Shown here: in pieces, positions 25,522-51,147 of the stretch
How positions within the stretch are numbered: the stretch's first letter is position 1
Layout of the letters: each line of letters opens with the position of its first letter
Source: Streptococcus toyakuensis
GTDB lineage: Bacteria; Bacillota; Bacilli; Lactobacillales; Streptococcaceae
Length of the DNA: 64,000 nucleotides
Assembly (NCBI RefSeq): GCF_024346585.1
Contig: NZ_AP024523.1
Location: forward strand, 1,497,001-1,561,000
Direction: 5' to 3'
Notes under the pieces: model-generated
The model's database searches: none
The model's input: only the letters and a program-made list of their open reading frames with translations
What the model was told of the DNA's origin: nothing
Made by a program: the position numbers and the translations under genes

Positions 25522-25647
25522 AAAAAGAGACCTGTTAATCATAACAAGTCTCGCTGTTTAAGATAGTGCCGGAAAGCATACTTTTCAGTATAAAATTCGG
25601 AATGACGACACTATCACAGGTTTCTGCCAGCTACTCCCTTGAGTAGT
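25522..25647 (-). promoter_or_regulatory. yybP-ykoY type Mn2+ riboswitch with terminator
   Basis: Transcribed on the minus strand. The aptamer region (about 25555-25647) contains the conserved GGGAGTAGC at its 5' side, the internal TCATTCCGAA segment and CCGGCACTATC closing against GATAGTG. An expression-platform terminator follows: the stem 25527-25552 (GAGACTTGTTA with TAACAGGTCTC) and then five U residues. The class senses Mn2+ and is known upstream of the pneumococcal homologue of this ATPase gene. Binding would prevent terminator formation and turn the exporter on. Confidence 0.9.
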
Positions 25648-35524: not shown

Positions 35525-36493
35525 ATGTCTCAACTCTATGATATTACCATTGTAGGTGGTGGTCCTGTCGGGCTTTTTGCAGCCTTCTATGCCCACCTAC
35601 GCCAAGCCAAGGTCCAAATCATCGACTCCCTTCCCCAACTAGGTGGCCAACCTGCTATTCTCTATCCTGAAAAGGAAATACTCGACGTCCCAGGTTTCCC
35701 AAATCTGACTGGAGAAGAGTTGACTAACCGTCTAATCGAGCAATTAAATGAATTTGATACCCCTATTCATCTCAATGAAACGGTTCTTGAGATTGAAAAA
35801 CAAGAAGAAGGATTTGTCATCACAACTTCTAAAGGAAGTCACCTGACTAAAACAGTTATCATCGCTATGGGTGGCGGTGCCTTTAAACCACGTCCTCTAG
35901 GACTAGAAGGCGTTGAAGGCTATGAAAATATCCACTACCACGTTTCCAACATCCAGCAATACGCTGGTAAGAAAGTGACGATTCTTGGTGGAGGAGACTC
36001 GGCTGTGGATTGGGCTTTGGCTTTTGAAAAAATTGCACCAACTACCCTTGTTCACCGCAGAGATAATTTCCGCGCCTTGGAGCACAGTGTTCAAGCCTTA
36101 CAAGAATCATCTGTATCCATCAAGACACCATTCGTTCCTAGCCAACTCCTTGGAGATGGAAAAACGCTTGACAAATTGGAAATCACAAAAGTTAAATCTG
36201 ATGAAACAGAAACTATTGACATAGACCACCTCTTTGTCAACTATGGTTTCAAATCTTCTGTTGGTAATCTTAAAAACTGGGGTCTGGACCTCAACCGTCA
36301 CAAGATTATCGTCAATAGCAAGCAAGAATCTAGCAAGGCAGGTATCTATGCTATCGGTGACTGCTGCTACTATGACGGAAAAATTGATCTGATTGCGACA
36401 GGCCTCGGAGAAGCACCAACCGCTGTTAACAACGCCATCAACTACATCGACCCTGAGCAAAAAGTGCAACCAAAACACTCAACCAGTTTATAA
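35525..36493 (+). CDS. Ferredoxin/flavodoxin-NADP+ reductase, thioredoxin-reductase-like type
   Basis: A 322-residue FAD enzyme that transfers electrons between NADPH and ferredoxin or flavodoxin. The FAD site is GGGPVGLFAAF (about 12-22), the NADP site GGGDSAVDWAL (about 153-163), and the C-terminal FAD motif contains YAIGDCCYYDG and GLGEAPTAVNNA. The CxxC redox pair of thioredoxin reductases is absent, as expected for this type. The start is placed at ATG 35525 with AAAGGAGA upstream. A terminator follows. It is divergent from cdaA. Confidence 0.92.
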   Translation: MSQLYDITIVGGGPVGLFAAFYAHLRQAKVQIIDSLPQLGGQPAILYPEKEILDVPGFPNLTGEELTNRLIEQLNEFDTPIHLNETVLEIEKQEEGFVITTSKGSHLTKTVIIAMGGGAFKPRPLGLEGVEGYENIHYHVSNIQQYAGKKVTILGGGDSAVDWALAFEKIAPTTLVHRRDNFRALEHSVQALQESSVSIKTPFVPSQLLGDGKTLDKLEITKVKSDETETIDIDHLFVNYGFKSSVGNLKNWGLDLNRHKIIVNSKQESSKAGIYAIGDCCYYDGKIDLIATGLGEAPTAVNNAINYIDPEQKVQPKHSTSL

Positions 36494-36498
36494 AAAAT

Positions 36499-36529
36499 AA
36501 CCACGAGTCAAATGCGATTCGTGGTTTTA
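36499..36529 (+). terminator. Terminator of the flavodoxin reductase gene
   Basis: AACCACGA and TCGTGGTT form an 8-bp stem followed by a short T run, 6 bp past the stop. Confidence 0.7.
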
Positions 36530-36551
36530 TAGTTCATCGGCTATCTTGTTA
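36528..36551. repeat. Left copy of a 24-bp direct repeat matching the whiA 3' end
   Basis: This 24-bp stretch matches 36916-36939 with two mismatches. The last 18 bases (TCATCGGCTATCTTGTTA, 36534-36551) are identical to the final codons of whiA. The two copies bracket the toxin-antitoxin locus. Confidence 0.8.
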
Positions 36552-36610
36552 GCTCATATTTTCCCCGTCTTTAACAAAAATAAAAATGCCTATCAAACTG
36601 ATAAAACATG

Positions 36611-36619
36611 TGATATAAT
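36611..36619 (+). promoter_or_regulatory. Extended -10 promoter of the toxin mRNA
   Basis: TGATATAAT is a TGnTATAAT extended -10, predicting a transcript start near 36626 and a toxin mRNA of about 200 nt. Confidence 0.6.
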
Positions 36620-36663
36620 AGGGACGGCACTAACAATACGCCTTGGAAAAGGAGGTATTACAG

Positions 36664-36759
36664 ATGCTAGAACTTCTCAAAATAGTACTTATCGCAGTCA
36701 TCGAGAGTATCATCTCATGGCTGGTGACTCGTTGGTTAGACGATCACTTCGACAAGTAA
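36664..36759 (+). CDS. Fst/Ldr-like type I toxin peptide
   Basis: A 31-residue peptide starting MLELLKIVLIAVIES, with one hydrophobic helix (about residues 4-22), a WL pair near the end of the helix and a charged tail DDHFDK. This is the layout of the Fst family of membrane toxins (pAD1 par locus), although the usual Pro in the helix is Val here. A perfect AAGGAGGT lies seven bases before the ATG. GCACTAAC at 36627-36634 in the leader is complementary to GTTAGTGC at 36768-36775 after the stop, so the mRNA can close on itself. A convergent antisense RNA repeats the start-codon region. It is too short for most gene finders. Confidence 0.75.
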   Translation: MLELLKIVLIAVIESIISWLVTRWLDDHFDK

Positions 36760-36787
36760 CCTTCCTGGTTAGTGCTATCTAACCCAG

Positions 36788-36858
36788 AAAAAATCCCCTC
36801 GGTATTGCAGTACCGAGGGGATTTCTGTTAGCACTAAAATGCTAGAACTTCTCAATTC
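36788..36858 (-). ncRNA. Predicted antisense antitoxin RNA (RNA II-like)
   Basis: A minus-strand RNA of about 70 nt, from the predicted promoter at 36865-36894 to the shared terminator. Its 5' part is complementary to a 17-base direct repeat, ATGCTAGAACTTCTCAA, present at 36839-36855 and identically at 36664-36680 over the toxin start codon. This gives it perfect antisense to the toxin start, as with DRa/DRb in pAD1 par. Confidence 0.6.
36791..36824. terminator. Bidirectional terminator shared by toxin mRNA and antisense RNA
   Basis: AAATCCCCTCGGTA and TACCGAGGGGATTT form a perfect 14-bp stem with a 6-nt loop, with A residues to the left and T residues to the right. It lies at the point where the two convergent transcripts meet. 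Confidence 0.85.
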
Positions 36859-36864
36859 CCCTTT

Positions 36865-36894
36865 ATTATCTCACATACTCTATTTAATTGTCAA
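36865..36894 (-). promoter_or_regulatory. Promoter of the antisense RNA
   Basis: A perfect TTGACA -35 (36889-36894), an 18-base spacer and GATAAT (36865-36870), read on the minus strand. The predicted start is near 36858. Confidence 0.6.
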
Positions 36895-36914
36895 GAAAGA
36901 GGTGTTTTATATCT

Positions 36915-37826
36915 TTATAACTCATCGGCTATCTTGTTAATTTTTCTGAGTCTGTGGTTAACACCACTTTTGGTCAGAGGGGTGCTGAGTCTATCTGCCA
37001 ACTGTTGGATAGAGTAGTCTGGGTGCTGAATCCGCAACTGCGCTACCTCCTGCAAATCCACTGGCAGATTTTCTAAGCCCATGATATCTTTGATTTTGCT
37101 GATATTGTTGATAGTCTTCATGCTGGCAGAAACTGTCCGAGCGATATTAGCTGTCTCAGCATTATTTGCCCGATTGAGATCATTACGGGTTTCTCGTAAA
37201 ATCTTAACTCGCTCAAAATCATCACGCGCCCGCATAGCACCAATGACAATCAAGAAGTCCATGATATCTTCGGCTCGCTGGAGGTAGGTCACAGCCCCCT
37301 TCTTGCGCTCAAGCACCTTGGCATCCAGTAAAAATTGCTGAAGAAGGGAGGCAATCCCTTGCGCATGGTCTAGATAAACAGAACTGATTTCCAACTGGTA
37401 CTTACCCGATTCAGGGTCACGAATGCTGCCATTTGCCAAGAAAGCGCCACAAAGATAAGCACGACCTGCTTCCTCATCTGACAAAATCTCCTCATCAATA
37501 CCTGTTTCCAGGCCAAAGAAGGAGTCTGCCAAGTGCAAATCACTCAACAAGTCCTGCACCTTTTCATCCGTAAAAACGGTATAGACTCGATTCTTGCGAA
37601 GATTGCTCCGTTGGTGGTGGCGAATTTCCGATTTGATTTCATAGAAATGGAGAAAGGACTCATAGAGGTGCCTAGCCAGCTTGGCATTTTCTGTCACGAC
37701 GGACAAGGTTAGGCCCGAGGTCGAGAGACCGATACTACCAGACATCTTGATAATGGCTGATAATTCATGCCTGCTCAGATGGTGCTGACCCAGGATTTCT
37801 TCTTTTACTGCTACTGTGAAACTCAT
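36915..37826 (-). CDS. whiA: WhiA family DNA-binding protein
   Basis: A 303-residue protein with two N-terminal LAGLIDADG-like domains (about 1-210) that have lost nuclease activity, and a C-terminal HTH (about 255-300, [18 protein letters not shown]). In Bacillus it affects cell division and chromosome segregation; in actinomycetes it is a sporulation regulator. It overlaps yvcK by 4 nt and forms the conserved rapZ-yvcK-whiA cluster. Its last codons are duplicated at 36528-36551, beyond the toxin-antitoxin locus. Confidence 0.95.
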
Positions 37827-51023: not shown

Positions 51024-51097
51024 ATGATTCTTTCTAATGAGTTGTTTCGTCGCTTTTCATTATAGGTCATATGGGACTTTTTTTCTACACAAAAATA

Positions 51098-51147
51098 GGC
51101 TCCATAATATTTATAGGGGATTTACCCACTACAAATATTATAGAGCC
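51098..51147. repeat. Terminal and subterminal inverted repeats of the ISL3 element
   Basis: GGCTCCATAATATTTATAGG starts the inner arm (51098-51119), and the outer arm (51125-51147) is its near-perfect inverse. Only 5 bp separate them, so the IS end can form a hairpin. Confidence 0.8.

Follow-up and report, generated by a model that had tools for sequence, protein, structure and literature searches.

A scar of 388 bases at whiA in Streptococcus toyakuensis appears, as read from the DNA sequence, to hold a complete RNA-controlled toxin-antitoxin (TA) pair. It is very probably a par-type type I TA left behind by a PPH080-like temperate phage that once sat in the whiA 3' end, with a proposed RNA-based mode of action and a toxin devoid of the P-XXX-G motif. 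The window, i.e. the whole stretch of DNA analysed, is 64 kb long. A first-pass annotation had placed here a par/Fst-like type I TA locus "in the chromosome". The par/Fst-like reading is supported by the anatomy of the locus, its predicted fold, repeats matching within the locus, DNA homology to phage par loci and low pN/pS. The words "in the chromosome" call for a qualification, as the locus is best read as a prophage leftover at the whiA attachment site. Beyond that annotation, new points are the putative prophage-scar origin and a toxin clade lying outside the Fst models; a par-type locus is in itself of a known kind. Features are as follows (coordinates in the window; numbers in G and L, used below, are our own handles).

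36526-36551, plus strand: left copy of the whiA 3' end, an attachment-site junction, holding TTATAGTTCATCGGC at 36527-36541
36590-36604, no strand assigned: operator-like palindrome CTATCAAACTGATAA, 74 bp upstream of the toxin start, of presumed function
36611-36619, plus strand: extended -10 of the toxin promoter, TGATATAAT, with TATAAT kept in 15/16 whiA-site loci
36621-36829, plus strand: RNA I, predicted toxin mRNA of ~205 nt, ends placed from promoter and terminator positions
36627-36633, plus strand: DRa, GCACTAA, which also lies in the upstream helix (5' strand 36627-36634, pairing with 36768-36775)
36635-36659, plus strand: 5' stem-loop hiding the Shine-Dalgarno (SD) in the predicted fold
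36649-36655, plus strand: SD AAGGAGG
36664-36759, plus strand: toxin ORF of 31 aa, with A-XXX-S where the family has P-XXX-G and with Glu14 inside the helix
36664-36680, plus strand: DRb target copy spanning the start codon
36768-36775, plus strand: 3' strand of the upstream helix, GTTAGTGC
36791-36824, no strand assigned: bidirectional terminator hairpin, from complementarity and fold
36785-36858, minus strand: RNA II, predicted antisense antitoxin RNA of ~70-75 nt, ends placed from promoter and terminator positions
36831-36837, plus strand: DRa copy in the RNA II template
36839-36855, plus strand: DRb copy in the RNA II template, identical in 15/16 whiA-site loci
36865-36894, minus strand: RNA II promoter TTGACA-N18-GATAAT with TG, hexamers unchanged in 16/16 whiA-site loci
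36895-36913, plus strand: shortened remnant of a prophage attachment arm, the one after the integrase gene
36914-36939, plus strand: copy of the whiA 3' end on the right, an attachment-site junction where whiA now ends
36915-37826, minus strand: whiA, the target gene, intact (TIGR00647, 386 bits)

The elements claimed by the first-pass annotation were found again. Its 31-codon ORF occupies 36664-36756, with a stop at 36757-36759, and is preceded at a spacing of 8 nt by the SD it had reported. The extended -10 TGATATAAT is borne out, the -35 of the same promoter being poor by eye. The hairpin proposed as bidirectional terminator has arms of 17 nt with 94% complementarity, and the minus-strand promoter matches the consensus at 11/12 positions and carries a TG as well. 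The two promoters are thus convergent and have one bidirectional terminator in common, as in par loci. Promoter scans alone are no evidence, because 3 sites were found where shuffles gave 2.1. Present as well are the 17-base direct repeat ATGCTAGAACTTCTCAA, at 36664-36680 and 36839-36855, and the pairing of the leader with the 3' region (GCACTAAC at 36627-36634 being complementary to GTTAGTGC at 36768-36775). A second repeat, the 7-base GCACTAA (36627-36633 and 36831-36837), was absent from the annotation's list and lies in the DRa position. The DRa/DRb logic of pAD1 par that had been invoked can therefore be spelled out as a DRb of 17 nt and a DRa of 7 nt, each copied in the antisense gene.

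The strongest evidence for a par-type TA comes from the comparative matching of repeats within streptococcal loci. In the window locus, the 17-mer ATGCTAGAACTTCTCAA has only two sites genome-wide, both of them here, and no exact direct repeat of 17 or more was reached in 2000 first-order shuffles of 36401-37100 (longest shuffled repeat, 16; longest observed, 18, due to the whiA duplication). We then compared every start-codon region with every downstream antisense region among 18 par-like loci. These were selected from the loci fetched, each having a toxin start that could be identified, and the other own-genome matches of the PF13955 search were set aside. The longest shared word averaged 11.6 bases within a locus (range 7-17), against 6.3 between loci and 6.2 in 3600 shuffles. 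Words of 10 or more were shared by 12 of the 18 within-locus pairs, 5 of the 306 between-locus pairs and 0.9% of the 3600 shuffles. The five between-locus cases were phiBHN167 with own-genome locus L103 (twice, the words being identical), the window with L026 (twice) and G013 with Javan52 (once). In six of the 18 loci (G265, own L101b, own L102, G010, G013 and G020) the repeats had only 7-9 bases and are individually unconvincing. The DRb words vary from locus to locus, with GTGCGATTTCATC in Javan254, TGCTAACATTTCTC in Javan290, AAATATTCTTCAC in Javan52 and GAACTAATCCTTAA in phiBHN167. A repeat that differs between loci yet matches within each means that the two copies changed together, as base-pairing would predict. 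DRa is likewise altered in step at G089, with TGGCGTTA in both places; among 8 loci checked by script, a clear DRa was not found in Javan52, G006 and G010.

Four more par-like toxins were observed in the window's own genome, on G000:C1 near 111062 (L101), 1864382 (L103) and 1988179 (L102): a tandem P-XXX-N pair, to which L101a belongs, one P-XXX-G and, at L102, one D-XXX-G. The NCBIfam model scores two of these, the first toxin of L101 and that of L102, below its cut-off. When duplexes were predicted between the five par loci of this genome, the cognate one was the strongest by row in 5/5. The margin was narrow for L101a (-24.4, vs -22.8 kcal/mol with the window antisense), and by column the L103 antisense was predicted to pair more strongly with the L102 toxin (-26.2) than with its cognate L103 (-22.9). 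Predicted antisense specificity is thus good for the window toxin and not absolute for the set.

Folding of RNA I (36623-36829) gave a predicted energy of -73.7 kcal/mol, with a helix joining the leader to the 3' region (leader pairing probability 0.87-1.0). The AAGG of the SD is predicted to be paired in a 5' stem-loop (probability 0.90-0.99), and the SD is largely paired also in the homologues folded. A 5' stem-loop on the SD and an upstream helix are both par-type traits. RNA II is predicted to form two small hairpins plus the terminator. Co-folding of the two RNAs gains 35 kcal/mol over the separate folds, and the predicted duplex between the toxin start region and RNA II reaches -36.8 kcal/mol. 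For the two intramolecular RNA I helices, 81.9% of cells keep their pairing. Slid partners gave 29-53%, whereas column shuffles gave 81.0%, practically as much; covariation in these helices was likewise not above shuffles, and it was not taken as proof. No YUNR U-turn was seen by eye in the RNA I terminator loop (UGCA/UUGCAG), a signature which some par homologues also lack (PMC7472228, available in part). Two Rfam RNAs lie elsewhere in the window: the Streptococcus RNA Srn266 at 51036-51147 (plus strand, 132 bits) and the streptococcal sRNA SSRC10 at 25522-25643 (minus strand, 63 bits).

The published par design comprises convergent RNAs, kissing at the terminator, a DRa/DRb block of initiation, a 5' stem-loop and an upstream helix (PMC7472228, available in part). 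Par-type loci are also marked by two RNAs, of about 200 nt and about 40-70 nt. The window locus could work along the following lines. RNA I, of ~205 nt, would encode the 31-residue membrane peptide, with its SD held in the 5' stem-loop and its 5' end locked to the 3' region. RNA II, of ~70 nt, would be transcribed convergently from the promoter nearer consensus. The two RNAs would first touch at the terminator hairpin that they share; pairing of RNA II would follow, through DRa to the leader and through DRb to the start codon, and would block translation. If the locus were lost, the RNA I pool would outlast RNA II and the peptide would be made. Anatomy, repeat matching, homology, att duplication and low pN/pS are read in the sequence; transcription, kinetics, toxicity and killing on loss are the presumed steps of this scheme. 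Killing on loss, if it occurs, would explain why the TA survived deletion of the remaining prophage.

The predicted peptide, MLELLKIVLIAVIESIISWLVTRWLDDHFDK (36664-36756), has a hydropathy of up to 2.26 over 17 residues, and W24 follows the hydrophobic stretch, as expected of the Fst/Ldr family, before the charged ending LDDHFDK. The suggestion that it lacks the usual helix Pro, and might represent a divergent branch, is likewise supported. When the peptides are aligned by their conserved Trp, Ala11 and Ser15 (A-VIE-S) stand where P-XXX-G has its P and its G. Five relatives share the change: Javan254, G265, G089 and G245 have Ala at the first motif position and Ala or Ser at the second, and Javan290, where Leu replaces Trp, aligns with Ala and Ser. 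All six toxins have an acidic residue three positions after the Ala, and Ser/Gly-Trp four residues beyond. The window peptide thus appears to belong to a toxin clade without P-XXX-G and with an acidic residue inside the helix. The P/D/S/T-XXX-G pattern, found in the helix of most Fst/Ldr members (PMC7472228, available in part), is replaced by A-XXX-A or A-XXX-S in all six.

The profile check proposed with the first-pass annotation was run, and the window peptide had no match in Pfam or NCBIfam (0 families at E up to 10), the Fst models PF13955 and NF033608 included; nor was it among the own-genome PF13955 matches listed with E up to 1. By contrast, toxins of Javan52, phiBHN167/IPP63 and own-genome L103/L010 are recognised by the NCBIfam Fst model, and that of Javan52 also by the Pfam one. 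The Fst models were run on four of the five clade relatives: neither matched the Javan254 or Javan290 toxins, and the NCBIfam model did not match those of G265 or G089. As the models miss the members scanned, such loci are probably unannotated. The clade matters for this reason, and also because it lacks both residues reported as essential in Fst-pAD1; in Lpt the Pro is essential (PMC7472228, available in part). With both positions differing, the window peptide could be weak or act differently. Despite a toxin outside the Fst models, the locus is to all appearances par in design and by DNA homology. Over codons 8-31, pN/pS was 0.19 against G245, 0.24 against G265 and 0.58-0.64 against the Javan254 type, values that come from four diverged homologues with 5 to 19 differences per pair and carry no computed significance. 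Among phages, the protein-level search returned Javan254 as sole match (52% sequence identity), and plasmids gave no DNA or protein match to the window locus. An IMG/VR pattern search with the toxin C-terminus found none, so this exact C-terminus is absent from those contigs. A literature search found neither the toxin clade nor a TA scar at whiA; as it missed a main survey, an earlier mention is possible.

We turn to the origin of the locus. A 26-bp direct repeat corresponding to the whiA 3' end, which the first-pass annotation had not mentioned, flanks it at 36526-36551 and 36914-36939 (92%). The core pattern TTATARYTCATCNGC occurs at only two sites in the window, and in 0 of 100 shuffles. 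The left core resembles the attB core TTATAATTCATCCGC of the PPH080 group, pneumococcal prophages that use the whiA 3' end and a tyrosine integrase of 375 aa (PMC8637289, available in part). Relatives with an empty site have a single copy of the whiA 3' end. For 12 of the 30 whiA sites fetched, the neighbourhood was displayed: the reductase gene abuts whiA in seven (G002, G003, G007, G008, G009, G017 and G024), the TA is present in G000 and G001, and other neighbours are found in G013, G019 and G023.

A phage arm was recognised as well. In L173, an IMG/VR contig, a tyrosine integrase gene (Pfam Phage_integrase) is followed by an arm and then by whiA. In S. mitis SK579 (L085), the DNA that separates the TA from whiA agrees with this arm plus core at 42 of 43 bases. 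The window arm aligned to that of L173 with a score of 39, the best of 300 shuffles reaching 27. All six TA-bearing sites (window, L085, L082, L084, L098 and L079) matched the L173 arm above 300 shuffles each, and neither of two empty sites did. The att copies, together with a phage arm between TA and whiA, make the locus best read as a remnant after prophage deletion on both sides, the deletions having stopped 38 bp short of the palindrome on the left and 19 bp short of the RNA II -35 on the right.

A scan of L173, at whiA, found no par toxin. L170, an IMG/VR prophage at a site other than whiA, has the same arm as L173 and a similar-looking integrase of 375 aa, followed by a 356-aa ORF, an M78 peptidase, an ORF that looks repressor-like and a par of P-XXX-G type. 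The toxin type of the window locus, its DRb word unchanged, recurs in the G245 prophage (L163), where its neighbour is an HTH repressor (Pfam); downstream, an apparent second par unit was seen by an antisense-promoter match, and a neighbouring ORF is one we take to resemble rplL. Fourteen phage records match the window locus DNA, one of them over at least 80% of the query, and a repressor-type gene stands near par in 4 of the 5 opened, Javan52 having none by name. A whole prophage at whiA with the window toxin type was not found, and an IMG/VR pattern search with the left att arm returned none. The integrase of G182, which is not the whiA-adjacent one, matches 96 of 98 relatives' genomes and is uninformative here; a full-length integrase at G000:C1:1159782-1160921 is 100% identical to it. 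In some strains an insertion of 1.3 kb separates the reductase gene from the TA (L095:15900-17150, in G001), with ORFs of 71 aa and 197 aa, the latter with a signal-like start. The G001 sequence left of the TA was considered as a whole prophage and rejected, since the coordinates leave only 1.3 kb there.

The palindrome CTATCAAACTGATAA at 36590-36604, another element that the first-pass annotation had not listed, covers the toxin -35 and is the single match of its motif in the 64-kb window. Ten loci, of phage type or from G138, have it ahead of the first par toxin located: 68-76 bp upstream of the toxin start in eight (L170, L163, L043, L044, L086, L088, L089 and L166) and 370 bp upstream, abutting a par-promoter match, in L168 and L169. 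In phiBHN167 it is flanked by the toxin on one side and by an annotated gene for a DNA-binding protein on the other. L040, L041, L042, L164, L171 and L173 lack it, and in L165, L103 and L172 the matches stand away from a par toxin. It may be a phage repressor site placing the toxin promoter under lysogeny control, a suggestion we offer as a lead only.

How widespread the scar is, and how it decays, bears on what it might be kept for. A clade profile built on four sequences, two of them identical, matched 22 of 284 Streptococcus genomes at an E cut-off below 1e-7. Reading of the 22 loci, one per genome, placed 16 beside whiA or the reductase gene, window included, and six elsewhere (G306, G106, G134, G265, G245 and G089), so that the window toxin type occurs at whiA in at least 16 of the 284. 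A DNA scan of the family matched 36 of 335 genomes: 15 over nearly the whole query, 15 in part only, 2 split by an insert (G070 and G140) and 4 at 70-75% over ~270 bases (G265, G306, G106 and G134). In a pattern scan, the 11 records with named hosts were S. mitis (8), S. hohhotensis, S. thalassemiae and Streptococcus sp. SPS1, with whiA or reductase neighbours in 11/11. The toxin side is damaged in 5 of the 16 whiA loci: G150, G107 and G001 have ATA as their toxin start; G070 has a TATCAT -10, L2P and an insert after the ORF; G140 has an apparent frameshift after codon 26, plus an insert. L076, read in addition, also shows TATCAT and L2P, its sequence ending before RNA II. The whiA site of G138 (L155/L166) has a tandem par pair, one toxin being P-XXX-G and a related one split by an insert. 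An element of ~100 bp, presumably akin to the pneumococcal RUP element, lies beside or inside the par units of L083, L114, L124 and L155.

The origin and purpose of chromosomal TA loci are debated; a 2025 review suggests that some are the last remains of integrated elements, and that elements reduced to their TA alone may serve as anti-addiction modules (PMC12548467, available in part). The whiA scar could be such a domesticated anti-addiction or exclusion module, with RNA II neutralising the matching toxin when a prophage enters or leaves the cell, and we regard this as a tentative possibility. Damaged toxin sides next to intact antitoxin promoters suggest such a role, without proving it. In addition, the predicted pairing of window RNA II with the toxin mRNA of the G245 prophage (-35.9 kcal/mol) is close to that with its own target (-36.8). 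However, the toxin should be lost before the antitoxin whether or not RNA II brings a benefit, and the ATA alleles may be a single event spread by recombination, so that this decay pattern supports the proposal weakly. Moreover, none of the genomes searched for the exact 17-mer combined the whiA locus with a copy in a prophage. The fuller version, which we put forward as unlikely, would have a TA with a phage operator and an undescribed toxin clade, whose acidic helix residue possibly goes with a different membrane target, outlive its prophage and be kept in the Streptococcus mitis complex since RNA II protects against matching prophage toxins, some lineages keeping the antitoxin only. The proposal is testable because the scar is readable: the TA lies between att copies, relatives have empty sites, the site has a published phage group, a prophage bears the same antisense word, and toxin-damaged alleles keep an intact antitoxin promoter.

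Simple decay was also considered, with a toxin that is already inert, either never toxic or drifting, and a locus that has become a neutral leftover, carried through the mitis group by recombination. The five damaged toxin sides fit this account, as does the replacement by Ala and Ser of the P and G that Fst-pAD1 requires. We nevertheless judge it rather unlikely, given that the window copy is intact with all its RNA elements, that antitoxin hexamers are intact in 16/16 whiA loci and the RNA II DRb copy identical in 15/16, and that pN/pS over codons 8-31 is low against G245 and G265, though less so (0.58-0.64) against the Javan254 type.

Alternatively, the TA might not be a deletion remnant at all: a phage integrase could have worked in trans to bring it, alone and as a cassette, into the whiA site. 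Only 38 bp lie between the left att copy and the palindrome, and only 19 bp between the RNA II -35 and the right att copy, which would suit a cassette. Yet sister loci retain a longer post-integrase arm, as deletions would leave, and in L170 the toxin start (4694) lies more than 2 kb from the integrase gene (1110-2237), which makes this route highly improbable. Finally, that a small ORF, a terminator and promoters fell together by accident, an idea to which the shuffled promoter scans alone would lend colour, is practically out of the question and already refuted by a 17-mer repeat never reached in 2000 shuffles, by homologous loci in phages and other genomes, and by the matching of repeats within loci.

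As a probable prophage remnant at whiA, the locus can be set beside several known systems. The par locus of pAD1 (RNA I/RNA II, Fst; E. faecalis) has the same convergent promoters and shared terminator, the same DRa/DRb pairing at the start codon, a 5' stem-loop on the SD and an upstream helix (PMC7472228, available in part). The window locus differs by Ala and Ser in place of Pro and Gly, by the U-turn not seen, and by residing at a phage attachment site instead of a plasmid. Closer in host is fst-Sm/srSm of S. mutans, also a chromosomal streptococcal type I TA with repeats over the start codon, which yields RNAs of ~200 and ~70 nt (PMC3543317, available in part); unlike the window locus, it has the Fst motif APxx(A/V)G and adjoins a COG2856 protease gene. 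The pneumococcal Fst loci SPV_2132, SPV_2448 and SPV_2450 share genus and type with the window locus (PMC6212727 and PMC9812572, both available in part), but lie upstream of ruvB and downstream of fucR and not at whiA. In the DXXXG clade of S. pneumoniae, Asp replaces Pro (PMC7472228, available in part), the glycine being kept, unlike in the window toxin.

On the phage side, the par loci of Javan254, Javan290, phiBHN167 and IPP63 are homologous in DNA to the window locus and have repressor-type genes nearby. The toxins of the first two belong to the window clade and those of phiBHN167 and IPP63 are of P-XXX-G type; all four loci sit within whole phages, unlike the window's. In the streptococcal phage contigs L086, L088, L089, L043 and L044, par occurs as one unit or as a tandem pair; the outer promoters are alike, and the toxins that they enclose differ. 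Prophages of C. difficile owe part of their stability to type I TAs (PMC7699646, available in part); these are whole prophages of another genus, and the comparison covers the type of system only. The PPH080 prophages share with the window locus the whiA 3' end and the core TTATAATTCATCCGC (PMC8637289, available in part), but they are prophages of ~35-45 kb, whereas the window locus keeps only the TA and its att arms.
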